From NCBI RefSeq assembly GCF_003576645.1, contig NC_044922.1:17913721-17977720 (forward strand): DNA of 64,000 nucleotides. The letters are read 5' to 3'. The stretch comes from Ipomoea triloba (taxonomy: Eukaryota > Streptophyta > Magnoliopsida > Solanales > Convolvulaceae). Position numbers and translations under genes: made by a program. Shown one piece after another: positions 28,552-52,187 of the stretch. Positions within the stretch are counted from its first letter, which is position 1. Each line of letters begins with the position of its first letter. The notes beneath the pieces are model-generated. The model was not told the origin of the DNA and did not search any database. It saw only the letters and a list, made by a program, of their open reading frames with translations.

Positions 28552-29551
28552 NNNNNNNNNNNNNNNNNNNNNNNNNNNNNNNNNNNNNNNNNNNNNNNNN
28601 NNNNNNNNNNNNNNNNNNNNNNNNNNNNNNNNNNNNNNNNNNNNNNNNNNNNNNNNNNNNNNNNNNNNNNNNNNNNNNNNNNNNNNNNNNNNNNNNNNNN
28701 NNNNNNNNNNNNNNNNNNNNNNNNNNNNNNNNNNNNNNNNNNNNNNNNNNNNNNNNNNNNNNNNNNNNNNNNNNNNNNNNNNNNNNNNNNNNNNNNNNNN
28801 NNNNNNNNNNNNNNNNNNNNNNNNNNNNNNNNNNNNNNNNNNNNNNNNNNNNNNNNNNNNNNNNNNNNNNNNNNNNNNNNNNNNNNNNNNNNNNNNNNNN
28901 NNNNNNNNNNNNNNNNNNNNNNNNNNNNNNNNNNNNNNNNNNNNNNNNNNNNNNNNNNNNNNNNNNNNNNNNNNNNNNNNNNNNNNNNNNNNNNNNNNNN
29001 NNNNNNNNNNNNNNNNNNNNNNNNNNNNNNNNNNNNNNNNNNNNNNNNNNNNNNNNNNNNNNNNNNNNNNNNNNNNNNNNNNNNNNNNNNNNNNNNNNNN
29101 NNNNNNNNNNNNNNNNNNNNNNNNNNNNNNNNNNNNNNNNNNNNNNNNNNNNNNNNNNNNNNNNNNNNNNNNNNNNNNNNNNNNNNNNNNNNNNNNNNNN
29201 NNNNNNNNNNNNNNNNNNNNNNNNNNNNNNNNNNNNNNNNNNNNNNNNNNNNNNNNNNNNNNNNNNNNNNNNNNNNNNNNNNNNNNNNNNNNNNNNNNNN
29301 NNNNNNNNNNNNNNNNNNNNNNNNNNNNNNNNNNNNNNNNNNNNNNNNNNNNNNNNNNNNNNNNNNNNNNNNNNNNNNNNNNNNNNNNNNNNNNNNNNNN
29401 NNNNNNNNNNNNNNNNNNNNNNNNNNNNNNNNNNNNNNNNNNNNNNNNNNNNNNNNNNNNNNNNNNNNNNNNNNNNNNNNNNNNNNNNNNNNNNNNNNNN
29501 NNNNNNNNNNNNNNNNNNNNNNNNNNNNNNNNNNNNNNNNNNNNNNNNNNN
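28552..29551. other. Assembly gap (1000 N)
   Basis: Exactly 1000 Ns, a conventional placeholder length, so the real distance is unknown. Confidence 1.
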
Positions 29552-31437: not shown

Positions 31438-34400
31438 CAGGGCCGTTCCAATAAAAAATAGGGCCCTGTGCAATATTTTAAATTGGGTCCCTTTTTTCAA
31501 ATAATTTGTATATATAAATAATAGTTGCTCAAAGAATTGTTTCAAAAATTCAAAATATAAATATTGTATAAAAATACATCTAAAATTTCATTTAAAAAGT
31601 GCCATGCGCCGTGCACATTTAGACGCAAAATCATCTACCAAACTTTTGATATCAACTTCTTCCAAAATCTCATTTTCAATCGAGATTAAAGCTAATTCAT
31701 TGAGTCTCTCTTGCAACATACTTGATCGTAAATAAGATTTCAATAATTTCAACTTTGAAAAACTCCTTTCTGCAGAGGCAACAGTAATTGGGATAGTCAA
31801 TAATATTCTGTATGCAATAGTAGCATTTGGAAAACAACCCATCTGCTTCAATGAATTCAATATACTCACTGGTCCTATCTTTTCTTTCGATAAAATTTCT
31901 CTAAGCAATTTTAGCTCAATATACAATTCATTTCCATCAATATCACCACACTGTTCATCTCTCTTAAGAGCTGCTTCTAAACAAATGCAACAAGATTTCA
32001 AATCCATATCAGCCATCGATTGTAACTTGTGAGAACTAAACAAAAAACCAAAAGTTTCTTCATATACTTCATATTGCTCAAACCTTTGGGTCAATGAAAT
32101 AATAGCTTGATCAACAATGTATAAAAAATAATGAACCTTAAAAGATTCTTCTGGTGATAATGAAGTCTCTTCAACACTCTCATCAAATTGTCTTTTTCTA
32201 CGAATTTTTAGCTTTTGAGGAAACACTGACTCAATTTCTAATTCAGTGGCAATTTCCTTTGCAATATCCATGGCACTAGAAAACCCATTTTTTCTATAAT
32301 TATTGAAGAAAGAAACTAACCCTTTAATTTGATTAATAGCAACATCAAGAAGCATATCTTTTGCTTGTAATTGCTTGCTAACTAAATTAACTGCATACAA
32401 GATTTCAAACCAAATGACTGTGGCTAGCAAAAATTCAAAGTTACTAAGCTCATTCGTAGCTAAAGATTTTGCCTCACTTTGAATTTTAGAATCATTGTCT
32501 GTATCTGCCACTTGAAGTAGGGCTTCTCGAATATCACTGACTTGATATCTAATTGCTTTAACACTTTCCACACGACTTTCCCATCGAGTAGATGACAATG
32601 GCTTAAGAGTTAGATTTGTTACATTACTCTTCAAGATATGCCATCTCTTTGTAGAATTAGCAAATATTGTGTAAATACGTTGCACTATTCCAAAGAAATC
32701 TCTTGCTTTGCCACAACTATTTGCAACATCACACAAAGTCAAGTTAAGACTATGACTACCACACGGAGTATAAAATGCTCTACGATTTACATCCAAGAGT
32801 CTTTTTTGTACGCCTTGATGTCTCCCTCTCATATTCGACCCATTGTCATAACCTTGTCCCCTTACATTATCTATATCAAGATCAAGTGATATCAACACAT
32901 TTTGTAATACTTCAAAAAGACCTTGGCCAGTAGTGTCGTTCACAACCAAGAATTCCAAGAAAAACTCTTCTATTTTAATTGGATATGTTGATATATCTAC
33001 ACATCTTAAAATCAAAGACATTTGTTCTTGGTGACTGACATCAGGAGTACAATCTAATATCACTGAAAAATATTTTGCTTCTTTGATTTTTTTGAGGACC
33101 TTTGTTTTAACTGCAGTAGCAAGCATAAGTATCAATTCGTTTTGAATCCTATGACCAAGATAATGATGGTGAATATCATGATTTTTAACACGTAAAACAT
33201 GCTCTTGAATGATAGGATCAAACTCAGCCAACATTTCAATTAGACCCAAAAAATTCCCATTATTATTCTCATACAACTTCTCACTTGTTCCACGAAATGC
33301 CAAGTTATATTTAGAAAGATACTTTACAGCTGCAATAATCCTAAATAGTACTTTCCTCCAATATTCTTTTTCTTTCAAAAGTTGTTCTTGAGCCACTTTA
33401 TCAATTGTCTCATGTTTTTGTAATCTAAGACGCAACTCCATCCAACTTGTCATATTAGTTATATGATCTACACTCGTTTCATGCTCTTTCAGTCTAACAC
33501 CAAGATGTGTCCAATCCCTAAAACCTTCATTAACCAAAACACCTTTTCCTATACCTTTTTTAAAAATCTTGCAACAAAAACAAAACACCTTGTCAAGTTC
33601 TTTTGAATATACAAGCCAATCCCGATCACACTTCTCTCCATTTGGCAAATATCTTGTGTAAAATGCTGAGGAAAATCTTCTAGAGAATTTATCTTTAGGA
33701 CCTTTATTTATTGATAAATCTCTTTTAGGACCATCTTTCACAAGAATATCTATTAATCTAGAATCAAGGACATCCCAATTTCTTGGATCATATATGTCAA
33801 ATAAAAGCGAATCATTTGGTTTATCATTTTGACCAACATCATCTAAACAACTATTGTCATTCTTATTATTTTCATTGTCACAATGATACCTATCCTCGTT
33901 GTGCACACTATCATTTAAATGTTTTCCAATCTCACAATCATCTTGATTTTCTATATGATGATTAGCATCTAACAATTTTTCCTTAGCATCATCTTTTTGC
34001 ACATTCATTTGAGTTTCTTTTGTAATGAATTTTTCAAGAGCTCCCTTTTGAGATTGAGTTAGTTTCTCAATTCTTTTTTTCTTTTTACGCTTTTCAAACT
34101 CAGATGAATATTTTCTAGAAGACATAATTATAAAACCCTAAAGAAAAAATTAAAAAAAATAATTTAGAAACTCTATGAACAAATAATTATTCAAGAAACA
34201 AATTCTTGAATATATTATTCTGAAATAAGAATTATTAACTCATATAAATAAAACAATAAACAAAAATTGTGAATATTTAGTAATTTTAATTACCTGAGAA
34301 TTGAAAGACTTGAAAATTTGTGACTTTGAACTTTGTACGATCAAGAAGAATTCTTCAATTCTATCGAACACAATATAAATATATAGGATAATGGAAGTAA

Positions 34401-34503: not shown

Positions 34504-35003
34504 TGATAGAAAGCATTCAACAACCTCAAGGTCTAAACCTCCTGGCCATTTCTTCAACTATTGTCTGCTGTCTGTATGGATTTCCTTCAACTATTGTCCC
34601 CAATAGAACATAAAACTACTCATTTTTGCATTAGATGTTCCACACAATACTGTGCTTGTTTCCTCTTATATAACTACTCTTCATCCACATTGATGCATTA
34701 GAGCAAAAAGTTGCAAGATGTGATTAGATAGCAGAAAAGAGGCATTATTTTATCCACTTTGGATTAAATTTATATTACTCTGGATAGTACAAGAATCAAG
34801 ATACACATTAAGTGCTCAGTGAAAATTAAAAAGTTGTGAAGTCACATTGTTCAGAAGTTGTGTAAATAGTCGGTATCCTTTCAACAATCAGTATAGTTCA
34901 TTGGTTTTCTTGTTTTAAGGAGTAATAGTTAGGTATGCCATATGCTTTTTGAGGTTAAATGTTCATACTTTTTATCATAATTCATATATATGTGATGTAA
35001 CAG
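34504..35003. other. Noncoding sequence between hAT element and NLR frame
   Basis: No frame resembling a coiled-coil (Rx-N) domain is visible where the N-terminal half of an R1-type protein would be expected. It ends in a good splice acceptor, GATGTAACAG (34994-35003). Confidence 0.5.
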
Positions 35004-35050
35004 GAGAAACTAAGCTCATTAAAAGAAAGGGTTTTGAACTCACTAGGACA

Positions 35051-38007
35051 ATGCCTAACATCCCAACATCTCCCGGTTTTGATGAAATTGTGGTGGGATT
35101 TGAGGATGAAACTGAAAACATAACAGGCCTGCTGATTAGAGGACCAAAAGAGCTAGATGTTGTATCGATTACTGGTATGGCTGGGCTCGGCAAGACAACT
35201 CTGGCCAGAAAGGTGTTTTACCATAAACCTGTTATTGATTGGTTTCATTTTCGGGCATGGTGCTGTGTCTCTCAAGAATATGACAAGAACCGTGTATTCC
35301 ATGAAATTTTTAGTCAAGTTTCAGACGATATGAGTAAGGATGATACAGATGAAGTGCTGCTTGAAATTTTAATGAAAAAGTGCAAAGATGAGCAAAGCTG
35401 GGTTGATACTGCTGAAGCCCTACGCATGGCCCTACGGGGGAAGTGTAAAGGCCACAAGATTAGGGATGATACGACTGAAGTGTTGTATGAAAGTTTAATA
35501 AAAATGAGCGAAGATGATAACAGCTGGAAAAAGATATCTAGTACACTGCACGAAAGCATAATGGAGAAGTGGGAAAACACCAAGAATTGGGATGATATTG
35601 CTAAGCCGTTGTATGAAAGCTTAATTGTGAATTTTGAAGACAATAATGAAATGTCTCCCAAATTCCCAGTGGAAAGGCACAAAGACATTAAGATGTGGGA
35701 AGACATAACAAGTGTGATAAGCCAAAGCAAAATTGTAGACAAAAAAGACATTAGGAGAACAGATGATGAAGTTGGGAATTTGTTCAAAAGCCTACAAGAT
35801 CTAGCTGAGGTGTTGTTCAAAAACATGAATGAAAAGTGCCAAGGGAATGACAGTTGGAAAGAAATGCTGGAAACATTATTCAAAAGCTTAAATGATATAG
35901 TTGAAACTTTGCTCATAAGCTTAAATAAGAAATGCAAAGACAGTAAAAGCTGGGATGACAACATAGCTGAGAAGCTACGCAAGAAACTGCTAGGACAAAG
36001 ATACCTCATTGTGTTGGATGATGTTTGGAGAAAAAAAGCATGGGATGAGTTAAGTAGAGCTTTTCCCTTGGGCGCAGAAGGAAGCAGAATCATCTTAACA
36101 AGTAGAGAAAAAGAAGTTGGAAAATATCCCAGGTCTGGTGCTGATCCCTATTCTCTTCGTTTTTTCACTACTGAAGAGAGCCAAGATTTACTGCAGTTAA
36201 AGCTATCTAAAGGGAATGTTGGCCCTCCAGAGCTAAAGGAATTTGGGAGACAGATAGCAGAAAGATGTGGTGGAGTACCTTTGGTGGTTGTTTTGGTAGC
36301 TGGTATTCTACAAAAAAAGATTGAAGAAAAATACTTCTCGTGGAATGAATTTCTTCAAAGTTTAAGCTCACATATCAGGGGAGATGAATCTCGGAGCATG
36401 GATGTAATAGCATTGAGTTACAAGCATTTACCTGAGCATTTAAAGCCATGCCTTCTTTACTTTGGGGCATTCCCAGAGGACCACGAAATTCCAGTCTCGA
36501 AATTGATACAGCTGTGGATGGCTGAAGGGTTTGTGAAACACATAAAAAAGAAGGTATTGGAGGATGAAGCAGAGGACTACCTGAATCATCTAATTGGTAG
36601 TAACCTAATAATGGTTTCCACCAGGGGATACAATAATGGCAGTGTCAGAACATGCCGTATTCATGATCTGGTAGGTAGCTTTTGTCTGACAAAAGCCGAG
36701 GAAGATAAATTCTTGATGCAAACAGACAGTGAAAAAACCAGCCCACATTCGGAATTGACTTCTACTTATGATCGGTTTTGTTTGCTTAAAAGGAATGATA
36801 AATATCTTTCTCCTGATTCAGCTACGTCACTTAATCCTAGTCTTGGCACACTTTTGTGCTTTTCATCACATAATCCTAACCTTGGCACACATTCCCTCTT
36901 TGCATCGGAGGTGGATCCTTCCTCTGGTTTATGGGTAGCTAGCACATTCAAACTTGTGAGAGTACTGGACTTGGAGTCCGTATTTGTGGGCAAATCATTT
37001 TTGTCCATGGTGGAGTTTCTCCTTTGTTTAAGGTACCTTGCTGTTTGTCTAAAAGGTTGTGGTTCAGTTCCACAGCCATCTCTAGAGCGTCTTCACCATC
37101 TAGAAACATTCAAGGTGAAATCAAGTGTGGATTTGCATTTATCATCCATGATTTGGAATTTAGAGGGTTTGAGACATTTGCATATAGATCACTATTGTCA
37201 TTGGTGCCTCTACTATGGGGGAAATTTTTTTAGTATACCCCCGAAGCCTTTAAATCTCCAAACCTTTTCCGTCCCGATCCTATTCGCCTCACGCAAGGAT
37301 GAGGATCTGTTGAGGAAGCTTCCTCATCTCCAAAAACTTAGATGCAGATTTTCAACATCATGGTATATGAATTGCCATAGATTCCCTGAGTTGGGATTTC
37401 TTGATCAACTTGAATCTCTGGAAGCATGTTACACCAGTGACCATCTGAATGCACCAATCTCCTCTGTGTTTGACTTTCCACCAAGTCTCAAGGAATTGAC
37501 ACTCCACAAGTTTCGCCTGCCATGGGATAGCATTTCAGTAATTGCCACGCTGCCCCGTCTTGAGTCTCTTGAACTGTTCTCAGCATTTGATGGTGAGCAA
37601 TGGGATGTTGAGGAAGGGAACTTCCGCGAACTCAAGTTCTTGAGAATATGCGAATCCAGGATTGTGAGATGGAATGCCACTGCTGAATCTTTTCCCAAAC
37701 TTGAGCGACTGGTTTTGGCAAAATGCAGGCATCTTGAAGAGGTGCCATCTGATTTCCAAGATATTATTACTCTACAAGTAATTGAAATTGATCAATGCAA
37801 CAGCTCTGTCGCTCGCTCAGTCAAGAAAATTCAGGAAGAAATGGAGGCACTGGGAAACGAGAACCTAAATGTTCGCGTACTAAATTCTGATCTGGAACTA
37901 GGAAACTGTAAGTAAAATATCTATGCTTTTCCATAGCACATCCCCTTTCACCCAAATGATGGTTGCTGTAATTTCTTTCTTCTTTATTTTTGTCAGGGTA
38001 CTTGTAA
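35051..38007 (+). CDS. R1-like NB-ARC/LRR resistance protein lacking a coiled-coil domain, NB-ARC expanded by internal repeats
   Basis: Intracellular immune receptor (NLR) of the late-blight R1-like class. The frame is open back to 34949 without an ATG, so I start at the first ATG, 35051; an upstream spliced exon is possible. From that Met: P-loop GMAGLGKTT (42-50), RNBS-A FHFRAWCCVSQEY (65-77), a ~220-residue repeat insertion (~94-315), kinase-2 RYLIVLDDVW (317-326), RNBS-B GSRIILTSR (344-352), GLPL-type CGGVPLVVV (406-414), RNBS-D CLLYFGAFPED (467-477), MHD position RIHDLV (536-541), then LRRs (~630-925). The usual ~300-500 residue N-terminus of this class is absent. The frame runs to a stop at 37913-37915, but a donor (ACT/GTAAGT, intron 37908-37996) and acceptor TTTTTGTCAG would instead give the end ...LELGN-WYL. 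Essential nucleotide-binding motifs look intact; the insertion makes function uncertain. Confidence 0.85.
35330..35995 (+). repeat. In-frame ~63-bp (21-aa) repeats inside the NB-ARC domain
   Basis: About eight degenerate units of pattern D-x-x-E-V-L-x-E-S-L-x-x-K-C-x-D-x-x-S-W-x-D sit between RNBS-A and kinase-2. Examples: TDEVLLEILMKKCKDEQSW, TTEVLYESLIKMSEDDNSW, ISSTLHESIMEKWENTKNW, DLAEVLFKNMNEKCQGNDSW, and the last, DNIAEKLRKKLLGQRYLIV, which runs into kinase-2. Normal R1-like proteins have one such segment (of the type ELAEKLRKxLKGRRYLIV), so the repeats look like multiplied copies of that native helix. Confidence 0.85.
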
Positions 38008-38590
38008 CAGGCTCTGAAAACTGGATTTATTGAATGGTTTCTCTTCGAATTGATGAGCACAGTCAATCTGCTACAGATGATATTCTGCATCAAGGAAAGA
38101 CATGAAACTTCCACGTACTTCTGGTTTGGTACATTGTACTTCAGTGTCTTCAAACTTTCAAGTATTATAATGTTTGTGTATGTGTTATTTGAGGCATTTA
38201 TGTTCTGTGTTTTTAAGGATTAATGTTTGTGTTTGTGTCATTTGAGACATTTAATGTTCTGTGTTTTTAAGCTAGGATTAATGTTTGTGTCATTTGAGAC
38301 ATTCATGTTGTGTGTTTTTAAGGATCCATGGAATAAGTGATCAAGGTCACAGAAACATTATTTGTGTAAATTCAATTATTAAGTGTTGTATTCATTGCTT
38401 TCAAAAAAAAAAAGAGTGTTATATTCATTGTTTTTAGAGTTAAGAATCCCCAATGCAGGAGGCCCTTATTAATGTATTGAGTACATACACTGCACCCATT
38501 TGAGTAGGTAATAGAGATGTCATTGCTCAAGTGCTCATTACTATTAAACTTTATGTTTATTGGGGTTGTACTGTGTATTCATTGTTAAAA
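38008..38590 (+). repeat. NLR 3' untranslated tail, reference copy
   Basis: Follows the spliced stop. Contains CAGGCTCTGAAAACTGGATT, GATGATATTCTGCATCAAGG, the tandem ~50-bp motif TTAATGTTTGTGT...TGAGACATT...TTCTGTGTTTTTAAGGA, and GGGGTTGTACTGTGTATTCA. The same block, with or without the short intron, returns at 39918, 40634, 45829 and 62252 on the plus strand and, diverged, at 29660-29855 on the minus strand. Confidence 0.85.
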
Positions 38591-38599
38591 ATGGATCAC

Positions 38600-39917
38600 A
38601 GATGAATATGAACCTATATGCTAGAGGTATGAAGTTCAACTAACTGAATCTGCGTTGCACTTTTTATGTGTAGTGTATTAGTTATCAAGAATCAATTCAA
38701 GAACATTATAGAAGAGTGGAGTTGAAGGAAAGTAGAGAATTTAATTTCTAGTAAAGTATTTGGACCATAAAATCGATATTACAATGCTTTATTTCATCAC
38801 TCAATTCTCCTTTAGATACGGAAAGTTCTAACTCTACCTCCATCGATCTTTAATCCTTTTTATTTTTGTGCTTTGGAAGTAAGACGACATGCATCTCACA
38901 ATCTCACATCATATAATCCAAAATGGACATACAATCCAAATTATGCGTGGAAAAAGTGTGTAATTGTACTTATTCTCAATTTGATTCTTTTACTTACGTT
39001 GATTTGAAACAAAGCCATTTTAAAAGATTTTTAATCCTTTTAAGTTGTAAATATATAGTTTGTTTCTGTTTCTGACCTACATATACAAACAATTATCATC
39101 TTTTGACAGTGTTAGAATTTAAGATTTGGCCAAGATCATTCAATTGGACTATAATAGACATGGCCAAACACACTTAAAAACACTGCAATCAAGTCCCTCA
39201 ACAACATAAAATCATGCAACTGAACTTAAAGTGAAGTGACTTGTTGATTTGGTATCAGCTGATGCAGCGGTCACTAGATAAAAAAAAATTAATTTTTAAA
39301 ATTTATTTTAATAACTATAAATTAAATAAAAACTAAATATTTTAATTAAAAAAAAAAAAACTCCACCAAACCCCTTCGTCTTTGTTAGAGACAAAGAACT
39401 CTTATTCGTCTTGACGATGAAACCTCTCTCATTTAAGAGTTAATTTCACCAGAGGTCCCTTGTCTTTGGTGGCGATTCTATATTTAGTTTAACATTATCG
39501 TTTTTGTCATTTAACATTCAGACTATTATGTTTTGGACACTTTTGGTCCTTCTGATGATTTTTCTGGTGAGATCTTATTTTTCACAAGGGTATTTTTATC
39601 TATTTAATTTTTCACCAATTTACTTTTTTTTTTTTTTTTTCTTCAGCTGGTTCTTTCTCTCATGGTTTCAGACCTCCCCGAATCAACAAATCCCTACAAT
39701 CTCCTTCATATCTTTCACCATCCTCTTTCACTATCTAGCCTGCCGTTATATTCCAACCTTTGCCTGCTACCAAGTAACATGCATGCATATATTATAGATA
39801 TAATAACGTATGTAATTGAGGCTAGCAGAGCAGCTAGCTTAGCTTTCATATTTTTATTCAGATGAGATGAGATGAATAATGAAATTGTGTGGATATATAG
39901 CTTGGAGCATGGGTTTT
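38600..39917 (+). repeat. Duplicated SEO-upstream / spacer block, copy 1 (with SEO exon scrap)
   Basis: 38600-38960 matches 46600-46759 + 47897-47990 and the SEO upstream region 56818-57900 (shared: TATGAAGTTCAACTAACTGAAT, AGAAGAGTGGAGTTGA, CAATGCTTTA-TTCATCAC, TTTTGTG-TTTGGAAG, CATATAATCCAA). 39100-39917 matches 48090-48324 + 51504-52120. Its last ~20 bases (CTTGGAGCATGGGTTTTGT) resemble SEO exon 8. Apparent small frames at 39504-39865 are not supported as genes. Confidence 0.75.
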
Positions 39918-40633
39918 GTAAAATAGATACTACTCCATTATCTATGCTCATCTCTTCTCTTCTCTTTTCTATAGCACACCCCCTTTCACCCAAATGATGG
40001 TTGCTGTAATTTCTTTCTTCTTTATTTTTGTCAGGGTACTTGTAAGTTGTAACAGGCTCTGAAAACTGGATTTCTTGAATGGTTTCTATTCAAATTGATG
40101 AGCACAGTCAGTCTGTTACAGATGATATTCTGCATCAAGGAAAGACATGAAACTTCCACTTCTGGTTTGGTACATTGTACTTCAGTGTCTTCAAGCCTTT
40201 CAAGTATTATATGTTTGTGTTTGTGTCATTTGAGACATTTTATGTTCTGTGTTTTTAAGGATTAATGTTTGTGTCATTTGAGACATTTAATGTTCTGTGT
40301 TTTTAAGGATTAATGTTTGTTTCATTTGAGACATTCATGTTGTGTGTTTTTAAGGATCCATGGAATAAGTGATCAAGGTCACAGAAACATTATTTGTGTA
40401 AATTCAATTATTAAGTGTTGTATTCATTGTTTTTAGAGTTAAGAATCCCCAATGCAGGAGGTCCTTATTAATGTTAATGTATTGAGTACATATATTTCAC
40501 CCATTTGAGTAGGTAATAGGGATGCCATCCTTTAAGTGCTCATTACTATTAAACTTTATGTTTATTGGGGTTGTACTGTGTATTCATTGTTAAAAATGGA
40601 ACACAGATGAATATGAAAATGATTCATTTAAGT
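39918..40633 (+). repeat. Orphan NLR 3' tail, copy 2
   Basis: Begins inside the terminal NLR intron (AAAATAGATACT-CTCCATTATC) and continues through the acceptor TTTTTGTCAG, the stop-bearing mini exon region and the 3' tail, ending AAAATGATTCATTTAAGT. No NLR coding sequence precedes it; its left edge is fused to an SEO exon scrap. Confidence 0.8.
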
Positions 40634-41160
40634 TGATACTTCTCCATTATCTATGCTCATCTCTTCTCTTCTCTTTTCCTTAGCACATCCCCTTTCACCC
40701 AAATGATGGTTGCTGTAATTTCTTTCTTCTTTACTTTTGTCAGGGTACTTGTAATAGGCTCTGAAAACTGGATTTCTTGAATGGTTTCTCTTCAAATTGA
40801 TGAGCGCAGTCAGTCTGTTACAAATGATATTCTGCATTAAGGAAAGACATGAAACTTCCACTTCTGGTTTGGTACTTTGTGCTTCAGTGACTTCAAACCA
40901 TTCAAGTATTATAATGTTTGTGTTTGTGTCATTTGAGAAATTTATGTTCTGTGTTTTTAAGGATCTATGGAATAAGTGATCAAGTTCCCAGAAAACATTA
41001 TGTGTAAATAGACTGCTCCCATGCACTCCCACATTTGAGTAGGGATGTCATCACATAAGTGCTCATTACTATCAAACTTTCTGTTTATTGGGGTTTTAGT
41101 GTGTATTCATTGTTAAAGATGGAACATAGATGAATATGAAAATTGTTCATTTAAGTTGAA
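40634..41160 (+). repeat. Orphan NLR 3' tail, copy 3
   Basis: Tandem to the previous copy, again starting inside the intron (TGATACTTCTCCATTATC) and ending AAATTGTTCATTTAAGTTGAA. It lacks one of the internal ATGTTTGTGTCATTTGAGAC repeats. Confidence 0.8.
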
Positions 41161-41264
41161 TTACATGTTTATGCATGCATTCATGTATAGTTTGATACTA
41201 ATACTTGTAAGCTTGTTCTTCATTCATTCATCTTTCTAAATCTAAATAAAATATTAATGTCATG

Positions 41265-41660
41265 TTTGGTTGGGTGTAGTTTGGGAGGAATTCAATTATT
41301 GAATTGCAATTCAGTGAATTCCCAAACTACACTGTTTGGTGGAATTGCAATTCCCTCCAAATGATGAATTGCAATTCATCGGTGGAGAAGAGGGGCAATT
41401 GTGTTGGTGTAAAGACAATTTTGCCCCTCCTCTCATACCCTTTGTCTTTTTTTCTTCTGCTGCCGCCGCCGCTGCTGCTGCTGCTGCAACATAAGAGCAT
41501 TTTAGTCATTTTGTCGCTTCTTACCTTTCAATTCCATGTACTCCTGTTCCTGCATACCAAACACTGTAATTTTAATTCATACTTTATTCATTGAATTGCA
41601 ATTCCACCGAATTACAATTCTTTTCTGCCCTGATTCCTTCCTCCCAACCGAACGCCCTGT
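41265..41660. mobile_element. MITE-like inverted-repeat element
   Basis: Left part TGTTTGGTTGGGTG...TTTGGGAGGAATTC and right part GATTCCTTCCTCCCAACCGAACGCCC are imperfect inverted complements, and the interior holds repeated palindromic GAATTGCAATTC motifs. The end sequences resemble the GGGNGTTTGGTT class. I could not fix a target duplication, so boundaries are approximate. A (GCTGCC)-like triplet run lies at ~41458-41487. Confidence 0.45.
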
Positions 41661-41789
41661 AAATGATCTGTCAAGCGATGCAAAACCGCCTAGAATGACC
41701 TCTCCCTTTAGAGGGGTGCATTAAATGTACCTTCTTAGGGGTTTTGATTGAAATGTGTCACTTTGTGGAAGAAGAGACAAGAATATGAT

Positions 41790-44700
41790 TAGGGGTGTGC
41801 AATACCCGACCCACCCGAAAAACCCGACCGACCCGTAATCCGAAATTGAGTATGAAACGGGTGTCACTACCCGATTCCATCAACCGACCCGTTGATTGGC
41901 TTAAGTGCGGGTGTAGGTTATCGGGTAGGGTTGAGAAATCTCCTCCCCGAACCTCCCGAATACCCTATTACATATATACACATATTATATAGATATATAT
42001 ACGACGTCGTATGATGTGTAATATATGTATACTCCTTTGTTCAGAGGGTGCCAACCCTAGGTCATTTGTGCTCTTTCTGCGCAGTCGCGACTCGCGACCT
42101 CTCCTCTCTGGCTCTTTGTTCTCTTCTCTGAGACTCTGAGAGTCTGAGTTCTCTCAATTCTCACTTCTCAGTGATCTCACTTCTCAGTCTCAGTCTCTCT
42201 CGAGTCTTTAGTCTTCTACTCGAGTCTTTTGTTCTCTCAACTTTCCGGTGGAACTGTGGAAGCCCTTAACGCCGTTGCAACTGTCGACTTGAAGCCGGTG
42301 GAAGCCCTAAAACTCCGGTGAGGCTTTTATCTAAAAAAAATAGAGAGTAGACTCATTAGAGACTGAGTCTTTGACTCTTTGAGCCGTTTGAGGTATGCCG
42401 GAACCCTAGTTCATAAATTTTTATTGTTATTGTATATTTGTATTACTGGTGTTGTGGATTTGTGTTTGATATGTGAATATGTGATTCTGTAGTTCTGTTG
42501 CTATGCCTTTGATATGTTATTCTGTTATGATATACTGATTACATTGAAATTAGGGTTTGCCCTAATTCAATCTAAGTGTGGAACTGTGGAAGCCCTTAAT
42601 TATTGTTATGCTTTGATCTGTTATTCTGTTATGATATACTGATTACATTGAAATTAGGGTTTGCCCTAATTCAATTTAAGTGTGGAACTGTGGAAGCCCT
42701 TAATTATTGCTATGCTTTGATGAGTTTGATCTGCTATTCTGTTATGAATTATGATATACTGATTACATTGAAATTAGGGTTTGCCCTAAATCAATTTAAG
42801 TGTGGAAGCCCTATTAGCCCCTAAATGATGAACTTTCTAACTTTGTAAGTTCTGAAATAAAAAATAAGTTTATGAAATTTATGGACCCTTAAATCAGTTA
42901 AATGTGTACCTCAGTATCTGTGTTTGTGTACCTCAGTATATGTTTTTGACTGTATGAGTCTAGCTGCATAACTATAAGTGTATAACCACATTATACTGAC
43001 TTGATCTTTTTTTCCATACTGATTTCTAATACACATCTCATCTGTAAAGATGGAGAGTATTAGTTTGTCTGGGCAACCTCCTCCTATACTATCTAGTGAG
43101 GAACTTACTGGGGTGGAAGCAGAAGCTGTGGAGAGAAATCAATCTCAGCAGCAAACTGTGCCTCCTCCTCAATTTGTTCCTTCAAAAAAAAGAAAGGAGG
43201 TTGAAACCAAATCCCCGGTATGGGATCATTTTGAGAAGGTCAAAAACAGTAGTGGAGTAGTTATGCATGCAAGGTGTATTTATTGTGCAAAATTATATGG
43301 TGGTCAGTCAAAAAAGCATGGCACATCTTCCTTAAGTCATCATATGCTTAACTGCCTAAAGAATCCTCACTCCAAAGATGTTAGACAATCTCTGCTAACA
43401 TTTCAGCATGTGGTTAGTCCTAGTCCAGAGACGAGGGTTAATGTGGGGGTCTTAACTACTTGGGTGTTCAATCAAGATGCAATTAGGAGGGCCCTAGCAG
43501 AAATGATACTCATTGATGAGCTTCCTTTCAGATTTGTAGAGGGGCAGGGGTTTAGAAAATTTATTCTTGTTGCATGTCCTAGATTTAAGATCCCATCTAG
43601 ATGGACTATAAGTAGGGATATTTATCAGATTTTTTCTGATGAGAGGGTAAATCTGAAGAAACTATTTAGGACTTCATGCCAAAGAGTTAGTATCACAACT
43701 GATACTTGGACTTCTGTCCAAAGGATAAACTATATGTGCATCACTGCACATTTTATAGATGACCAATGGAAGCTACACAAAAAGATCATATCATTTGTCC
43801 CTGTCACCTCACATAGGGGAGAATACATTGCCAAAGCCTTAGAAACCTGTCTTCTAGAGTGGGGGCTAAAAAATATATTCACTGTGACTGTTGACAATGC
43901 CTCTAGTAATGACACTGCTATGGGTTTCTTCAAAAAGAAGTTGCTGTCTTGGGGGGTTTCTTCTGTGAAATGCAATTATGTGCACATGAGATGCATTGCA
44001 CATGTCTTAAATTTGATTGTCCAGGATGGGTTAAAGGATGTAGACAGTTCTGTAAAGAAGGTGAGGGATGCAGTTAGATATGTGAGAAATTCTCCTACTA
44101 GGCTAAAAAAATTCAGGGACCTTGCTGATTTAATAGGGGTGGAAGCCAAATCTAGTTTGACTCTTGATGTACCAACTAGATGGAACTCAACCTACTTGAT
44201 GCTTAAGAATGCAGTCACATATCAAAAGGTATTTGAGGCCTATGAAGAAAATGATAGTTCATTCTCACATGATTTAGGTGAATCTGTCCCATATTTTATG
44301 GATTGGCATTCTGTTGAGCATATGGTGAAGTTGCTTAAATGTTTTTATGAAATGACCCTAAGGATTTCTGGTTCTCTGTATGTGACTGCCAATAATTTCT
44401 TCTCTGAAATTTCTGACTTGTCTTGCATGCTGTCTGAAATGGTGGAAGCTGAATCTGCCTCTGTTAATCTGATGGGTTTCAATATGAAAACGAAGTTTGA
44501 GAAATATTGGGGTGATCCTGATAAAATGAATGCCATCATTTTTTATGCAAATATATTGGATCCAAGGGATAAAATTGCATACATGCCATACCAGTTCACA
44601 CAACTGTATGGTGATGATAAGGGAGAATCTTGTTTCAAAAATGTTTTAACTGGTCTGAAGAATTTGTTTGATGACTATGTGCATGGTTCATCTGTCAGTG

Positions 44701-44857
44701 TTGATTCTGCTACTGCTGTCACTGGTACATCCCAGTCCCACTCTCAATCTGTCACCATTGGTAGACCACAGTCTAAACTGAAATCTCAGTTAAAAAAGCA
44801 AAGAGCAGAGAGTGGTGAGTTGGGAGGCAAAAAAACTGAGCTGGAAATCTATCTAAG
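41790..44857 (+). mobile_element. 5' portion of a hAT (RICESLEEPER/BED) element, 3' end lost
   Basis: Begins TAGGGGTGTGCAATACCCG, a hAT-type terminus with the typical CCCGACCC-rich subterminal region; the flanking 8 bases are AATATGAT but no matching right end or duplication exists because the element joins NLR LRR sequence near 44857. The leader region 42000-43049 has CT-rich stretches and a tandem repeat. Confidence 0.7.
42490..42815 (+). repeat. Three tandem ~104-113 bp repeats in the hAT leader
   Basis: TGTTATTCTGTTATGATATA (third copy TGCTATTCTG...) starts at 42515, 42619 and 42732, each followed by GATTACATTGAAATTAGGGT and TTTGCCCTAA. A GTGGAAGCCCT motif of the same family also appears at 42249 and 42290. 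Confidence 0.8.
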
Positions 44858-45960
44858 TGTAGCTAGCACATTCAAACTTGTGAAAGTACTGGACTTGGAG
44901 TCCATAATTGTAGGCAAATCATTTTTGTCCATGGTGGAGTTTCTCCTTTGTTTAAGGTACCTTACTGTTTGTCTAAAAGGTTGGGATTCAGTTTCACCGC
45001 CATCTCTAGAGCATCTTCACCACCTAGAAACTTTCAAGGTGAAATCAAGTGTGGGCTTGCATTTACCATTCATGTTTTGGAATTTGGAGGGCTTGAGACA
45101 TTTGCATATAGATCACTATTGTAATCGCTGTCTCTACAGGAGAAACTTAATTCTTATACCCCCAAAGCCTTTAAATCTTCAAACCTTTTCCATCCCGGTC
45201 CTATTCAACTCGCGCAGGGATGAGCATCTGTTGAGGAAGCTTCCTCATCTCCGGAAACTCAGATGCAGATTTTCAACGGCATGGTATAGGAATTGCCATA
45301 GATTCCCTGAGTTAGGATTTCTTGACCAACTTGAATCTCTGGAAGCATGTCGCATCAGTCACCATATGAATGCAGCAATCCCCTCTGCATTCGACTTTCC
45401 ACCAAGTCTCAAGGAATTGATACTCCACAAGTTTCGCCTGCCATGGGATAGCATTTCAGTAATTGCCAAGCTGCCACGTCTTGAGTCTCTTGAACTGTTC
45501 TCAGCATTTGATGGTGACCAATGGGATGTTAAGGAAGGAAACTTCAGCAAACTCAAGTTCTTGAGAATATGTGAATCCAGGATTGTGAGATGGAATGCCA
45601 CTGCTGAATCGTTTCCCAAACTTGAGCGACTGGTTTTGGAAAAATGCAAGCGTCTAAAAGAGGTGCCATCTGATTTCCAAGATATTATTACTCTACAAGT
45701 AATTGAAATTAATCAATGCAACAGCTCTGTCGCCCGCTCAGTCAAGAAAATTCAGGAAGACATGGAGGCACTGGGAAACGAGAACCTAAATGTTTGCGTA
45801 GTGAATTCTGATCTGGAACTACGAAAGTGTAAGTAAAATAGATACTTCTCCATTATCTATGCTCATCTCTTCTCTTCTCTTTTCCATAGCACATCCCCTT
45901 TCACCCAAATGATGGTTGCTGTAATTTCTTTCTTCTTTATTTTTGTCAGGGTACTTGTAA
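43050..45960 (+). CDS. Chimeric BED-hAT transposase fused in frame to NLR leucine-rich repeats
   Basis: One uninterrupted frame of 928 codons. Residues ~50-105 form a BED zinc finger (VWDHFEKV, C76-x2-C79, H97/H98, C102). Residues ~140-560 are the RNase H-like hAT transposase core with ITTDTW (D218), VTVDNASSND (D282) and PTRWNSTYLM (~375-384). The hAT C-terminal dimerisation region begins as KKTELEIYLS (594-603) and is cut there; from VASTFKLVKVLDLES (604 on) to the end the protein is the LRR region of the NLR at 36940-37915, only moderately diverged. As in that gene, a donor (AAGT/GTAAGT, intron 45829-45949) and acceptor TTTTTGTCAG would end it ...LELRK-WYL (stop 45958-45960); unspliced it stops at 45834-45836. 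No NB-ARC domain. The transposase should bind DNA but not dimerise normally. Whether it is expressed is unknown. Confidence 0.8.
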
Positions 45961-46590
45961 CAGGCTCTGAAAACTGGATTTCTTGAATGGTTTCTCTTCA
46001 AATTGATGAGCAATCTGCTACAGATGATATTCTGCATCAAGGAAAGACATGAAGCTTCCACTTCTGGTTTGGTACATTGTACTTCAGTGTCTTCAAACCT
46101 TTCAAGTATTATAATGTCTGTGTTTGTGTCATTTGAGACATTTTATGTTCTGTGTTTTTAAGGATTAATGTTTGTGTCATTTGAGACATTTAATGTTCTG
46201 TGTTTTTAAGGATTAATGTTTGTTTCATTTGAGACATTCATGTTGTGTGTTTTTAAGGATCCATGGAATAAGTGATCAAGGTCACAGAAACATTATTTGT
46301 GTAAATTCAATTATTAAGTGTTGTATTCATTGCTTTCAAAAAAACAAAGTGTTGTATTCATTGTTTTTAGAGTTAAGAATCCCCAATGCAGGAGGTCCTT
46401 ATTTGAGAAGTTTGAAGAGACCAAGCAAAATATATCATACATCATACATACAATGCACCCATTTCAGTAGGTAATAGGGGTGTCATCTCCTAAGTGCTCA
46501 TTACTATTAAACTTTATGTTTATTGGGGTTGTACTGTGTATTCATTGTTAAAAATGGAACACAAATGAATATGAACCTATGCTAGAGGTA
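45961..46590 (+). repeat. NLR 3' tail behind the chimeric gene, copy 4
   Basis: Same order of motifs as the reference tail at 38008, with two ATGTTTGTGTCATTTGAGAC units and a small insertion (TTTGAGAAGTTTGAAGAGACC) shared with the copy at 62.4 kb, so copies 4 and 5 are closer to each other. Confidence 0.8.
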
Positions 46591-46759
46591 TGAATTGAAG
46601 TTCATGCAAGAATTGAAGTGGTTTGGGACAACAGTACACCTATGCTAAATTTCAACTAATTAACTGAATCTGCGTTGCACTTTTTATTTGTAGTGCATAA
46701 AGCTCTAACCTCCGCCTTTAATCCTTTTTATTTTTGTGCTTTGGAAGCAAGAAGAGATG
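46591..46759 (+). repeat. Duplicated SEO-upstream block, copy 2, left part
   Basis: TTCATGCAAGAATTGAAGTG, AACTGAATCTGCGTTGCAC and TTTAATCCTTTTTATTTTTG match 56818 on and 38640-38890. About 145 bp present in copy 1 (38680-38825) is missing here. Confidence 0.75.
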
Positions 46760-47896
46760 TGATATCTGCTATTTTGTACAATTATTCACCCCTTATTTTA
46801 GTTGTTTTGAAGGTTATTTTCTGTATCCTAGTAAAATTGGGAATTGTTTGTGTGCTATATTGTCCAAGTGCTGAATTATCTACAAGGAACAACAAAGGAA
46901 GAATATTGGAACATTTTGGATAAGTTCTGGAAGAAAAGGGAATTACAAGGAAGAATACAAATTGGAAAAGAATTGGAAGTTGCCTAATGGGCCAAGGCCC
47001 ATCTACCTCCTATATATTCTAAATATTCTCTACAATTGAAGAAGTTCCCCCTACAGAGTTCTGAACCCTAGCTTTTAGTTTATATTTCCCTAGCATAGTT
47101 TAGATTAGTTTTACATTAGATTATTTACTTTCAAGCTTGGAATCGGATTGAAGTTGGATTTGTTCTTTATCAGTAAAGTTTCTCTTCCCTTTTATTTCTT
47201 GCAATGTTTATGATTATTTATTATTGCTTTGTTGTGGTTACTTCCATCATGCGGGAGTAATTCGTTTATGGGTTTGGATTAGGGGTCCATTGTTAATCTT
47301 GATGTTCAATTTATGATTAATTGCATAAAGGGATTGAATCTTTTACCTAGGGTTTATGTTGATTTGGGGATTTCTTTGCACTAGCTATTGGTTTGTGGCC
47401 ATAATTAATTGCTAGTCTAGGAGAGGGATTCATTACAACAACAGTTGGATGGAGACCTCGAGCCTTACCAATTTCAACCTAATTTTCCTGCTATGAAAGT
47501 AGAGGTAATATTGGGGGCTTACAATGCTTAGGTGCTTAAGGTTATGATTGATGCATGGGGCAATCTTATCCTAATTCTCTTATTGATTACGAAAGTAGCT
47601 GAGTAGAATTCTTTTGTGCATTGCCCATATATCCCTTCGGTTAATTATTCCTTCCCTAATCCTGAGCTTGTTAGAACATCAAGGTTACAATCCCCCTAAT
47701 CTGGCCCATACTTTTATCATATAGTTTACACCTTAATCAATTGCTTTCTTTTATTCCACATCATTCAGTCTTTGTTACTTGGATTCTATAAATTCATATA
47801 CTCTAGTGCCTGGTAATTCACACAGTTTCGTGCCATAACACCAATCCTCAGCGGAACGACATTACACCCTTTTACACTCATCATTTGTGCTCATCA
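46760..47896 (+). mobile_element. Solo LTR, 1137 bp
   Basis: Begins TGATATCTGC and ends GTGCTCATCA (TGAT...ATCA ends), flanked by AGATG on the left and ACATG on the right. The paralogous block at 38890 reads CGACATGCATCTC without the insert, so the original target was ACATG and the left copy has mutated. A TATATATT box lies at ~47011 and the right part (TCGTGCCATAACACC, AATCCTCAGCGGAACGAC) resembles Athila/Tat-type gypsy LTR ends. No internal retroelement genes. Confidence 0.7.
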
Positions 47897-48335: not shown

Positions 48336-50086
48336 GTGGGTAGAAACCGGAAGGCAGCCTTTGCTTATATTGAAGACAAGATTAAGCAGCGAATTGGGTC
48401 GTGGAATAAGAAGCGATTATCGCAGGCGGGAAAGGAGATCTTGTTGAAAAGTGTGGCTCAAGCAATGCCTACTTTCTCAATGAGTGTCTTTTTGCTACCT
48501 GATTCAATATGTCTGTCTATTGAGAGAGTGATGAACAGGTTTTGGTGGGGTTCGGGTTCTGAGAGAAGAATTCATTGGAAAGCATGGGATCGCTTATGCA
48601 AACCCAAGAAGTTTGGAGGGTTGGGTTTTAAAGATCTTCGTGCATTTAATTTGGCTATGTTGGGAAAGCAAGCCTAGCGTTTTCTAACTATGCCAGACTC
48701 TCTAGTAGCAAGAATATATAAGGCACGTTATTACCCCAAAACCTCTTTTATTGAGGCATCAATTGGTAGTTCTCCAAGTTTCTGTTGGCGTAGTATCATG
48801 GCTGCTCATGACCTTATTTGTAGCGGTGTGAGACGCAGGATTGGAGATGGGAAGACTATTCTAATTTCGGGCCACCCTTGGCTGCCTGACGATCCAACCC
48901 CAATGGTTCAAACACCAATGCTACCACACCTGAGGGGTTCAGTTGTGTCTGTTTTAATTGATATTGATAGTGGCTCATGGGACATCACTATTCTCAATGA
49001 CATTTTTAATCAGCACGATGTTCAGCGCATTAGCAGGGTGCCTATATCGCTATACTATGAGGATGGGTGGTTTTGGCATGATGACCCAAGGGGCATTTAT
49101 TCTGTGAAAAGTGGTTATAGGTCAGTCATGGGTGAATTCAATGGTATGGAGGGTGAATTTGGCAAATGGAACTCACTATGGAAAATAAAAGTACCCCCCA
49201 AGTGGAAAGCTTTTCTCTGGAGAGCCCTAATTGATTCCCTACCAGTCACCACTAACTTACTTATAAAGAGGGTAGATGTAGACCCAACATGTCCAAAGTG
49301 TGGTGTAGCTCATGAGAATGTTTTGCATGCATTGGTTTCGTGTGTTTATTCCGAATTAATTTGGCATGAACTCAACTTACCTACTGTACCATACGTGGGT
49401 GAGTCTTTTAGTGTGTGGTTCTCAACTGTTTTGCATGGATTTTCAGAAGAGGAAGTTGCATTGACGGTAGCTGCGTTATATTACACTTGGCGTGCACGGA
49501 ATTCAGCTGTTTGGGACGGCATCCTTCCACTGCCGAGGAAGGTGAAGTTCTCAGCAGAAGTTGCGCTGCAGGCATGGAAGGCTCTTCACTACGGCAGCTC
49601 ATCCACATCCGAGGCTGCGTCCATTACAGATGCCGCCTCGGATCACTCGCACACAGCGCGGCCAAATTGTTTCTTCGATGCTGGGTTCTGCGCATCCATG
49701 CTCAAGGCAACATATGGAGCAGTTCTACTCACAGCAAGGGGGAGTTTTTAGCAGCCTGTGCAGGGCCCCTGCCCGATTGCTATTCACCATTAATGGCGGA
49801 GGCGGAGGCATGCAAACTGGTTCTTCCTTGGCTGCGTGACAAGGGGCTGGCGTCGGTGGTGGTTCATACGAATTGCTCACAACTACGGTCACACCTTTTA
49901 CACGGTTATTCCATCCGCTCACATGCAGGTTATGCCATTCAGGCATGTAGGGCGTTTATTCAATTATTTCATAGTTGCGTTTTTCGTTTAGTTCCTAGAA
50001 CGGAAAACGTCATAGCACATACACTTGCCGCATCGACTTTTTTGCAGTTTAATTCCTTGTATTGGGACTCTGTCCCTCCTGACTAG
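48336..50086 (+). pseudogene. LINE polyprotein remnant: RT C-terminus, zf-RVT, RNase H
   Basis: The frame reads [15 protein letters not shown]..., the C-terminal part of a plant non-LTR reverse transcriptase, then the zinc-binding zf-RVT domain (VPPKWKAFLWRAL, CPKCG near 49294), then an RNase H domain (FFDAGF, AEAEACKLVLPWL, ENVIAHTLA). Three lesions: TAG at 48675-48677 in place of the expected Trp of GKQAWRF; a frameshift near 49735-49745 between LLTARG and SKGEFLAAC; and Asn in the RNase H motif VVVHTNCSQL where Asp is expected. The N-terminal endonuclease and most of RT are absent. The stop at 50084-50086 is supplied by the inserted hAT-like element. A dead copy. Confidence 0.88.
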
Positions 50087-51434
50087 GGATGGCAATTTCA
50101 ATCCGCCCCGCGGATATCCACCCGAATCCACCCCGCATGGGTCGGGTTTTTTTGGGTGATAGTGGGTGGTCGGGGTGGATCTTAAAAATGTAAACCCGCG
50201 GTGGGTCGGGTTGGATTCGGGTTTTATGTACAAAACCCGCCTAGCATCCCCACCCGACCCACCATGTGTGCATACATATATGTAATAGTAAAATAAGTAG
50301 TACTAGTATATAGTTAATTATAAAAGTTTCAATAACTTTGGGTAACTTTTTACTATTTTAATATCTAAACAACTAAATTTATTTTTAAAAAATTAACAAT
50401 TTAGTTATTATATTATAATAATATTTCTATTATTTTATGTTTTAGTGTAACTAATGAATTTTGTTGTTTAATTATGTGTAAGTAATTTTGATATTATTTT
50501 TTGAAAAAATAATAAGTTGATAAGTAGTGGGTACCCTAGTGGGCACCCACACCCGGTGGGGGTGGGGATGGATTCTAAAAAAGTCCACCCGATGCGGGTT
50601 GGGGGTGGGGGTGGGTGGAGAAAATGAAAGGTGGGTCGGGTGATGGATGTAGCTAGGGGTGGGCATTTCGGTCTTCGGTTCGGTTTTTTCGGTTTCGGTT
50701 TCGGTTTCGGTTTTAAAAAAAATTGAACCATTCGGTTTAACATTAGAGTTCGGTTCGGTTTCGGTTCGGTTTGAAACGGTTCGGTTTCGGTTCGGATTTA
50801 CTTCGGTTCGGTGTTCGGTTCGGTTTACGGCTCCCGAATTTTAACATTTCCTAGGAGACAAGGCGATCGGAGGTGCCGCGAGTTAGCGGGGCACCGTATT
50901 TACTATACATGAAACATCACATAACCCAAATCCAAAGTAATATTTAAATAATAAATACCACCATAACAAATTAACAATTCAAACAAATTAAAATAAAAAA
51001 ATAAAACTAGAAATTAAATTCCAAAACTGAAATGAATTTGGAAATTCATTCCAGTCATTCCAGTAACTGGAATGAATTTCCAAATTCATTCTTAGTTTTG
51101 AAATATATATATTACGTATTTATAAATAATATATAAATATATTTATTAATTAATATATATATATATATATTTATATTTATAATTATATATAATATATATT
51201 TATATTTAATTATAAAATATTTCGGTTTTTTCGGTTCGGTTCGGTTTTCTCGGTTCGGTTCGGTTTTTAACCGAACCGTTCGGTTCTTCTAAAACATGAA
51301 CCGATCGGTTTTTCGGTTCGGTTTAAAACCGAAACGGACATCTTCAGTTCGGTTCGGTTCGGGTAACCCGAACCGTTTTGCCCACCCCTAGATGTAGCCC
51401 TCCCCGATCCACACCCGACCCATTGTCATCCCTA
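50084..51434. mobile_element. Non-autonomous hAT-like element in LINE 3' region
   Basis: Inverted ends TAGGGATGGCAAT / ATTGTCATCCCTA (one mismatch in 13) and an exact 8-bp duplication CTCCTGAC (50076-50083, 51435-51442). Subterminal CCACCCGAATCCACCCCGC is typical of plant hAT MITEs. No transposase. It is itself split by another element at 50654. Confidence 0.9.
50654..51390. mobile_element. Second non-autonomous hAT-like element nested inside the first
   Basis: Perfect 12-bp inverted ends TAGGGGTGGGCA / TGCCCACCCCTA and an exact 8-bp duplication GATGTAGC (50646-50653, 51391-51398). Subterminal regions are long runs of TTCGGTTCGG (left and right, inverted), a well-known plant hAT MITE look. 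The interior is AT-rich with a TCCAGTCATTCCAGTAACTGGA palindromic area near 51048-51075 and TA-rich sequence; no gene. Confidence 0.92.
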
Positions 51435-51503
51435 CTCCTGACTCTATTTCTGCTTTGCTGCATTAATCAAATTATTCCTTTGATTTCAAAAAAAAATTAA
51501 AAA

Positions 51504-52094
51504 AAATAAAAACTAAATATTTTAATTAAAAAAAAAAATCCACCAAACCCCTTCGACTTTGCCAGAGACAAAGAACTCTTATTCGTCTTAGGTCGGAGAC
51601 GATGAAACCTCTCTCATTTAAGAGTTAATTTCATCGGAAGTCCCTTGTCTTTGGTGGCGATTCCATATTTAGTTTAACACTATTGTTTTTGTCATTTAAC
51701 ATTCAGACTATTATGTTTTGGACACTTTTTGTCGTTCTGATGATTTTTCTAGTGAGATCTTATTTTTCACAAGGGTATTTTTATCTATTTAATTTTTATT
51801 TTTTAATTTTTCACCAATTTACTTTTTTTTTTTTTTTCTTCAGCTGGTTCTTTCTCTCATGGTTTCAGACCTCCCCGAATCAACAAATCCCTACAATCTC
51901 CTTCATATCTTTCACCATCCTCTTTCACTATCTAGCCTGCCGTTATATTCCAACCTTTGCCTGCTACCAAGTAACATGCATGCATATATTATAGATATAA
52001 TAACGTATGTAATTGAGGCTAGCAGAGCAGCTAGCTTAGCTTTCATATTTTTATTCAGATGAGATGAGATGAATAATGAAATTGTGTGGATATA
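51504..52094 (+). repeat. Duplicated spacer block, copy 2, right part
   Basis: Resumes at the LINE target duplication and matches 39320-39897 nearly base for base (CCACCAAACCCCTTCG, TATGTTTTGGACACTTTT, CTCCCCGAATCAACAAATCC, GAGGCTAGCAGAGCAGCTAG). Confidence 0.85.
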
Positions 52095-52187
52095 TAGCTT
52101 GGAGCATGGGTTTTGTTAGGCAAAGAAAAAGAATAATTGCATGCAATATGGGAGATAAAATGGTAGCAATCATGAATGAGTACAATA
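52095..52187 (+). pseudogene. Fragment of SEO gene exon 8
   Basis: TTGGAGCATGGGTTTTGTTAGGCAAAG-AAAAGAATAATTGCATG...GGAGA-AAAATG...ATGAATGAGTA parallels 61752-61836 in the SEO gene (there ...SWTLLSKGKRIIACDMGDKM). The rest of an SEO copy is deleted around it. It marks where a second SEO gene once stood behind the chimeric NLR. Confidence 0.7.

Follow-up and report, generated by a model that had tools for sequence, protein, structure and literature searches.

A 64,000-nucleotide stretch of the Ipomoea triloba genome (C7:17913721-17977720), hereafter the window, contains an open reading frame in which the front of a hAT transposase is joined to the leucine-rich repeats (LRRs) of a nucleotide-binding leucine-rich repeat receptor (NLR). 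The fusion frame is real in the assembly, and it probably arose in I. triloba when two genes were joined by accident not long ago, through a deletion that was repaired by end joining. It is a young fusion between a transposable element and a gene, of a kind already known, and it is neither an NLR with an integrated domain (NLR-ID) nor a working transposase.

The frame runs from the ATG at 43050 to the TAA at 45834-45836, and its 928 codons (43050-45833) are free of stops, as a first-pass annotation of this DNA had reported. Residues 1-603 (43050..44858, forward strand) are those of a hAT transposase and include a KKRK stretch, a BED finger (43212-43346), D218, D282, the pair R377-W378 and the helical insertion domain. 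The LRR half, consisting of 325 residues and the unspliced stop (44859..45836, forward strand), follows directly. The frame cannot be a chance product: its transposase half is 97.9% identical to a database protein, the intact transposase P0002, and its LRR half is 98.2% identical to an unrelated one, the I. batatas protein P0049. In the 928-residue frame, Pfam recognizes zf-BED at residues 55-99, an hAT-like RNase-H at 440-543 and LRR_14 at 604-795, the latter at 2.5e-18 and of NLR type, while residues 604-908 match NRC2a at 7.5e-26. At E <= 0.01 the same search lists no NB-ARC, the domain that would make the frame an NLR or a BED-NLR (its absence had been noted from the start), and no hAT dimerisation domain (PF05699), the hAT part stopping at ELEIYLS. 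The end of the frame carries a putative intron inherited from the NLR (45829..45949, forward strand, GTAAGT...TTGTCAG); going by its splice signals, and in agreement with the annotation, its removal would change the last residues to RKWYL and place the stop at 45958-45960. Beyond the unspliced stop, NLR 3' non-coding DNA (45837..46594, forward strand) is colinear with the downstream part of NLR1, the NLR encoded 8 kb upstream.

The joint (44858..44859) can be read to the base. Five related hAT copies, or siblings, have AAGT/GAGGA at this place and the others have close variants, NLR1 has TATGG/GTAGC, and the chimera has AAGT/GTAGC; over a wider span, most siblings read CTAAGT/GAGGAAATTG, NLR1 reads TTATGG/GTAGCTAGC and the chimera reads CTAAGT/GTAGCTAGC. 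The overlap amounts to 1 bp (G). Neither an element end nor a target duplication is present at 44858/44859, and therefore the joint is not itself a product of transposition. When the genome (462 Mb in 17 contigs) was searched with a 401-base junction query, 31 matches were obtained and just one, the locus itself, covered both sides. DNA homology to NLR1 begins sharply at 44859, which corresponds to 36935, and continues for 1764 aligned columns to 46594, spanning the coding sequence, the putative intron and the 3' non-coding DNA. The cut had been described as falling exactly where both the hAT dimerisation region and the LRR start. The first of these positions is correct; the second is not exact, since the NLR1 sequence directly before the cut (DRFCLLK...LGTLLCFSS, which we take to be the first LRR) still aligns to NRC3 (YRRLCIQ...VRSFLCVGS), so that some of the N-terminal edge of the LRR has been lost. 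The Pfam LRR_14 model itself begins close to the cut.

The transposase half continues upstream into a recognizable hAT element. Ten hAT loci were fetched, and seven of them (C1, C5, C8, C9, C12, C14 and C15) were analysed for their ends, L013, L017 and L018 being left out. The 5' end of the element (41790..43049, forward strand), with the terminal sequence TAGGGGTGTGCAATACCCGACC, is the same in the seven siblings, all of which share TAGGGGTGTGCAATAC at the position of 41790; this region contains an ACCCG-rich subterminal stretch and a leader with a 104-bp tandem repeat (42498-42721). Immediately before it, AATATGAT (41782..41789, forward strand) is a candidate 5' copy of an 8-bp target-site duplication: perfect 8-bp direct repeats stand there and at the other end in 6/7 siblings, and for C8 the second copy was not found. 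The six siblings with both repeats measure 4683-4878 bp, apart from C5 (6397 bp). In three pieces out of four (of 582, 56 and 44 residues) the I. triloba protein P0003 is 100% identical to the C15 copy, and in the fourth (25 residues) 92%. The parent element belongs to a young family of ~4.7-kb hAT elements that has been spreading recently. Over the 3069 bp that it keeps, the copy in the chimera, which carries 19 private substitutions, is 96.0-98.5% identical to the seven siblings and closest to C1 (98.5%). Its final ~1.65 kb is missing from the window. Neither the 3' part or end that would complete the copy nor an exact hAT 3' end followed by AATATGAT was found in the region formed by the window and 100 kb on each side, in which N makes up 9.9% of the sequence.

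These ends bear on the idea of a Pack-type capture, in which the LRR piece would be moving inside a mobile hAT element. Plant DNA transposons do capture gene fragments, and the passages of PMC5819176 on this subject discuss Helitrons and Pack-MULEs, but here the fragment does not lie between two element ends, the hAT 3' end being found neither in the window nor, outside the N runs, in ±100 kb. Moreover, the subterminal motif ACCCG/CGGGT is absent from 44859-47500 and the homology to NLR1 extends through the 3' flank, so that this capture is largely refuted and retains hardly any probability.

As to the LRR half, the annotation was right about its extent (~320 residues proposed, 325 found) and less so about its source, NLR1 (34919..37915, forward strand), a stop-to-stop frame with NB-ARC, winged-helix and LRR regions. 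The protein identity to NLR1, which is a paralogue of the parent, is only 83.8%, compared with 92.0% to I. nil P0071 and 98.2% over the 325 residues to I. batatas P0049, and a P0049-type gene is the better parent. P0049 has 605 residues, an NLR-like front and no transposase part, that is, it is unfused. A genome search with segments of P0049, in which 72 of 725 candidates were scored, gave 91% as the best I. triloba match for residues 1-167 (NLR1 and an unplaced duplicate scaffold), 98% to the chimera for residues 281-605, and 86% to a partial place on C16 for residues 404-578. Since the front of P0049 reaches at best 91% and its rear 98%, the chimera seems to be a remnant of a P0049-type gene, and by these comparisons the LRR half seems to be what is left of another NLR and not a copy of NLR1. 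In the unplaced scaffold, 2815 bp flanked by runs of 1000 N are a duplicate of NLR1 with 100% identity. With 121 protein queries, the stretch 38700-41790, which precedes the hAT 5' end, showed no NLR coding sequence.

The following course of events would account for the locus. A member of the young hAT family inserted upstream of an NLR, or within its lost front, in a small NLR cluster rich in transposable elements; the 5' end common to the siblings attests to the insertion, and we infer the exact ancestral site. A subsequent deletion would have taken ~1.65 kb of the element, namely the remaining catalytic and dimerisation region, the 3' end and the second target duplication, together with the front of the NLR; rejoining of the free ends would have left the 1-bp overlap. 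The junction is observed directly, and a single deletion followed by end joining would be its simplest cause. The reading frames would have matched by a one-in-three chance. The hAT leader, presumably with its promoter, would now stand ahead of a 928-residue frame that ends in the intron and 3' region of an NLR, and transcription would presumably start from that leader. The predicted product keeps a DNA-binding N terminus, followed by a dead transposase and an open-ended LRR, and would lack the NLR switch. Most likely, the fusion is neutral and decaying.

A joint of this kind could also arise during assembly, if gap filling or scaffolding had connected a high-copy hAT element to an NLR at its LRR end, in which case the plant would not contain the fusion. 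According to PMC6214957, the I. triloba NCNSP0323 genome, to which the window presumably belongs, was built from short reads with SOAPdenovo2 and GapCloser, followed by PBJelly with 5x PacBio and by Pilon. On the hAT side, the 152-160 bp beside the joint are matched at 99-100% in ten other places, the unplaced 2815-bp scaffold duplicates NLR1, and at 4/5 single-N joints of the fetched hAT loci, the 30-mer after the N repeats one from further upstream. The latter are probably unmerged overlaps, and therefore the hAT family does cause assembly errors. The joint of the chimera, however, lies within the hAT coding body, away from any repeat end, and it contains no N, the window having none after 29551; only 1 bp is shared there, where a k-mer misjoin would be expected to leave a long shared stretch. 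In addition, the hAT half has its 19 private substitutions, and no other listed place exceeds 92% identity to the LRR half in DNA. An artefact, the main rival explanation, is unlikely, to a degree that still calls for caution, and the locus serves as a warning that frames of this kind in short-read assemblies need proof at the level of reads. The probable unmerged-overlap joints are at L012 4354, L013 2462 and 5277, and L016 5223, of which L016 may be a true tandem repeat.

If the fusion exists in the plant, as we consider probable, the next question is what its transposase half could still do. The essential residues of hAT transposases, as a survey of plant hATs gives them for Hermes (PMC6027215, after Hickman et al.), are D180, D248, R318, W319 and E572. 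D218, R377 and W378 of the chimera were aligned to positions 105, 243 and 244 of 6dww, that is, Hermes D180, R318 and W319 (offset 75, counted by hand). For D248 there is a gap in the printed alignment, which places D288 opposite it; D288 and D282 are both kept, and D282, in VTVDN, is presumably the more likely equivalent, judging by the family motif. The segment VASESAFSTSGR of P0002, the intact relative, is aligned with Hermes AASERTFSLAGN, and the Glu of SESAFS corresponds to position 477 of 6dww, which is 572 by the 95-residue offset to 8edg. The hAT part of the frame stops before this Glu, so the third catalytic acid is absent. The proposed union of a BED finger and a hAT catalytic core with LRRs therefore stands as far as the finger, the RNase-H and the LRR are concerned, but the core is incomplete, because the equivalent of E572 lies beyond the cut. 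Judged by the five residues, the chimera is predicted to be incapable of working as a DDE transposase.

A dead transposase may nevertheless be a working protein, either by binding the subterminal repeats of its family and repressing live copies or as a nuclear DNA-binding LRR sensor or decoy. The frame is open, the BED finger, the KKRK stretch and both candidate aspartates are kept, a sibling with an open frame (C1) exists, and the hAT N-terminal regions alone have been co-opted many times as DNA-binding proteins, as parts of PMC8097297 describe; a repressor or decoy is therefore thinkable, not likely. The N terminus, with KKRK and BED, is probably nuclear and DNA-binding, and the predicted protein would combine a broken RNase-H core with an LRR whose N-terminal edge is exposed. 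On the other side, neither conservation of the fusion nor a signature of selection was seen, and two private changes fall in or near the BED finger: K54, close to it, where 40/41 transposases with a residue there have R, and S96, within it, where 35/38 have R or K. The suggestion of a new DNA-binding LRR protein or decoy thus received no positive support, with no junction protein listed and substitutions like those of defective siblings, and a functional product is quite improbable. Similarly improbable is its specific form, a nuclear, non-cutting binder of the ACCCG repeats of its own family in which an NLR sensor surface replaces the dimerisation domain, as a newborn repressor or DNA-tethered LRR decoy. 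If true, it would be a live intermediate on the route by which BED domains entered NLRs.

The search for the same junction in related species, proposed together with the annotation, did not find it. The full-length protein search, in which the best 8000 candidates were scored, gave 846 matches, and among the 121 predicted proteins stored (the best 120 plus NLR1) none aligned to both halves; with residues 560-928, which span the junction, 0/36 matches covered both, the best coverage being 89% and due to the LRR only. Two of the 108 non-NLR matches among the best 120 of 846 (P0047 and P0068, counted by hand) carry an evidently foreign Pfam accession, going by the domain names that we take these accessions to have. 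Predicted chimeras of hAT and host sequence therefore occur, and none with LRR is among the matches listed. The chimera itself is not among these matches, although named I. triloba entries are present and NLR1 appears as the shorter entry P0127, and for this reason its absence from the listed proteins is weak evidence.

The age of the locus is in keeping with an accidental fusion that has had little time to decay. The terminal branch of the chimera among the hAT copies is 0.0069 substitutions per site; at a substitution rate of 7e-9 per site per year, this gives ~1 million years as an upper bound for the fusion. Together with the 98.5% identity to a sibling and the 98.2% identity to an unfused I. 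batatas relative, this branch supports the earlier description of a very young, undecayed chimera. In the hAT half, the private coding changes are 7 nonsynonymous (N) and 4 synonymous (S), with no stop. The siblings have N:S ratios of 7:2 (C12), 6:4 (C15), 7:6 (C9) and 3:7 (C1), or, with stops in addition, 6:3 and 2 stops (C14), 17:7 and 3 (C5), and 19:6 and 2 (C8), and C1 alone, out of eight copies scanned, has a frame that stays open from MESISLS up to and including the catalytic Glu. The chance that a neutral substitution creates a stop is 4.0%, and the frame stays open with probability 0.60 for 12.6 substitutions; without selection an open frame is therefore the likelier outcome. From site fractions, the neutral expectation for 11 changes is ~8.2 N : 2.8 S, against the 7:4 observed, a comparison that has little power.

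Several observations weigh against a neutral accident of this origin. With such small counts, 7:4 would fit weak constraint as well as neutrality. The separate estimate for the LRR half, suggested alongside the annotation, gave a ratio of nonsynonymous to synonymous rates (Ka/Ks) of 0.61 against NLR1 (bootstrap 0.39-1.00), although most of this divergence is older than the fusion. T639 is the only residue unique to the LRR half of the chimera relative to P0049 and nine other NLRs; three other differences from P0049 are private to P0049 and two are of unresolved side. The precomputed Pfam list of P0049 contains no NB-ARC, and therefore the parent NLR may have been incomplete already, or the P0049 gene model may be poor. 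Finally, the ancestral empty site was not seen.

Regarding known systems, BED-NLRs keep the NLR body and take the BED domain only, whereas the chimera keeps the transposase body and has lost NB-ARC. The likeness to BED-NLRs (Xa1, Xo1, Yr5, Yr7 and Pm6Sl) consists in a BED finger of the BED-DUF4413-hAT kind joined to NLR material, the BED domains of BED-NLRs being similar to those of BED-DUF4413(-hAT) proteins, according to the relevant passages of PMC7761493. SETMAR, CSB-PGBD3 and KRABINER also have the DNA-binding part of a transposase in frame with a host domain, and in the account given in part of PMC12062965 they bind DNA and regulate expression, whereas the chimera is known here from its sequence. 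Domesticated hAT proteins, such as those of the SLEEPER genes and the CGG-binding proteins (treated in sections of PMC8097297 and PMC3499209), share its hAT derivation, but they are established gene families and the chimera is a single locus with a foreign C terminus and an identity of ~98% to its mobile siblings. The formation of NLR-IDs by transposition or ectopic recombination resembles it in that rearrangement at an NLR locus gives a chimeric frame; here, unlike in those cases, the footprint is readable (the 5' end, one candidate target duplication, the siblings) and the product falls outside the NLRs. Whether transposons help to make NLRs with extra domains has been left undecided by surveys, in part through eroded footprints: the passages concerned state that such footprints erode fast and that recent integrations are needed (PMC5819176), and that the evidence is insufficient for a role of transposon activity in NLR-IDs (PMC4759884). 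At this locus the 5' end, the siblings and the unfused NLR relative can all be read, and therefore the likely steps (insertion, deletion, end joining and a chance frame) are traceable; its value is that of a readable early step in a process that surveys only inferred. If the product is neutral, the locus displays the raw material of fusions; expression and retention of the product would instead make the locus an early example of domestication.

The NLR cluster has further features. The 3' non-coding DNA of the two NLR units (36935-38633 and 44859-46594) is 95.2% identical over ungapped columns and the coding sequence 91.8%, with a Ks of 0.13; the higher likeness of the non-coding part may perhaps reflect local gene conversion or diversifying selection on the LRR. 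In NLR1, for which Pfam lists no coiled-coil domain, ~195 residues (P0001 residues ~146-340) split the NB-ARC between its P-loop and kinase-2 parts. Sequence resembling this interruption is visible in I. nil P0071 and in I. batatas P0049 and P0105, and hence a split NB-ARC seems to be a feature of this Ipomoea NLR group. Upstream of the hAT insertion lie three NLR 3'-end remnants (39918-40617, 40635-40964 and 41020-41159, forward strand); the first begins at the point equivalent to where the coding sequence ends and adjoins a repeat (39318-39919), a second copy of which, 93% identical, is at 51498-52116.

Elsewhere in the window, another hAT-type transposase frame (31588-34137, reverse strand), which belongs to a different subfamily, has 849 stop-free residues, with DUF4371, a dimerisation domain and SAERSFS, and a 737-bp non-autonomous hAT-like element (50654-51390) has TAGGGGTGGGCA as its inverted ends and GATGTAGC as a perfect 8-bp duplication. 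Adjoining the NLR cluster, ~22 kb of ~168-bp tandem satellite (2674-24867), in which there are local duplications of 42 bp and periodicities near 334 bp, is possibly pericentromeric, which is a guess. Runs of N occupy 27306-28164 and 28552-29551 and are the reason for the overlapping long frames found there in all six reading frames. The remaining features are a remnant resembling a long interspersed nuclear element (48678-50086; zf-RVT and RVT_3) and, at 61376-62089, a sieve element occlusion gene represented by its C-terminal part.

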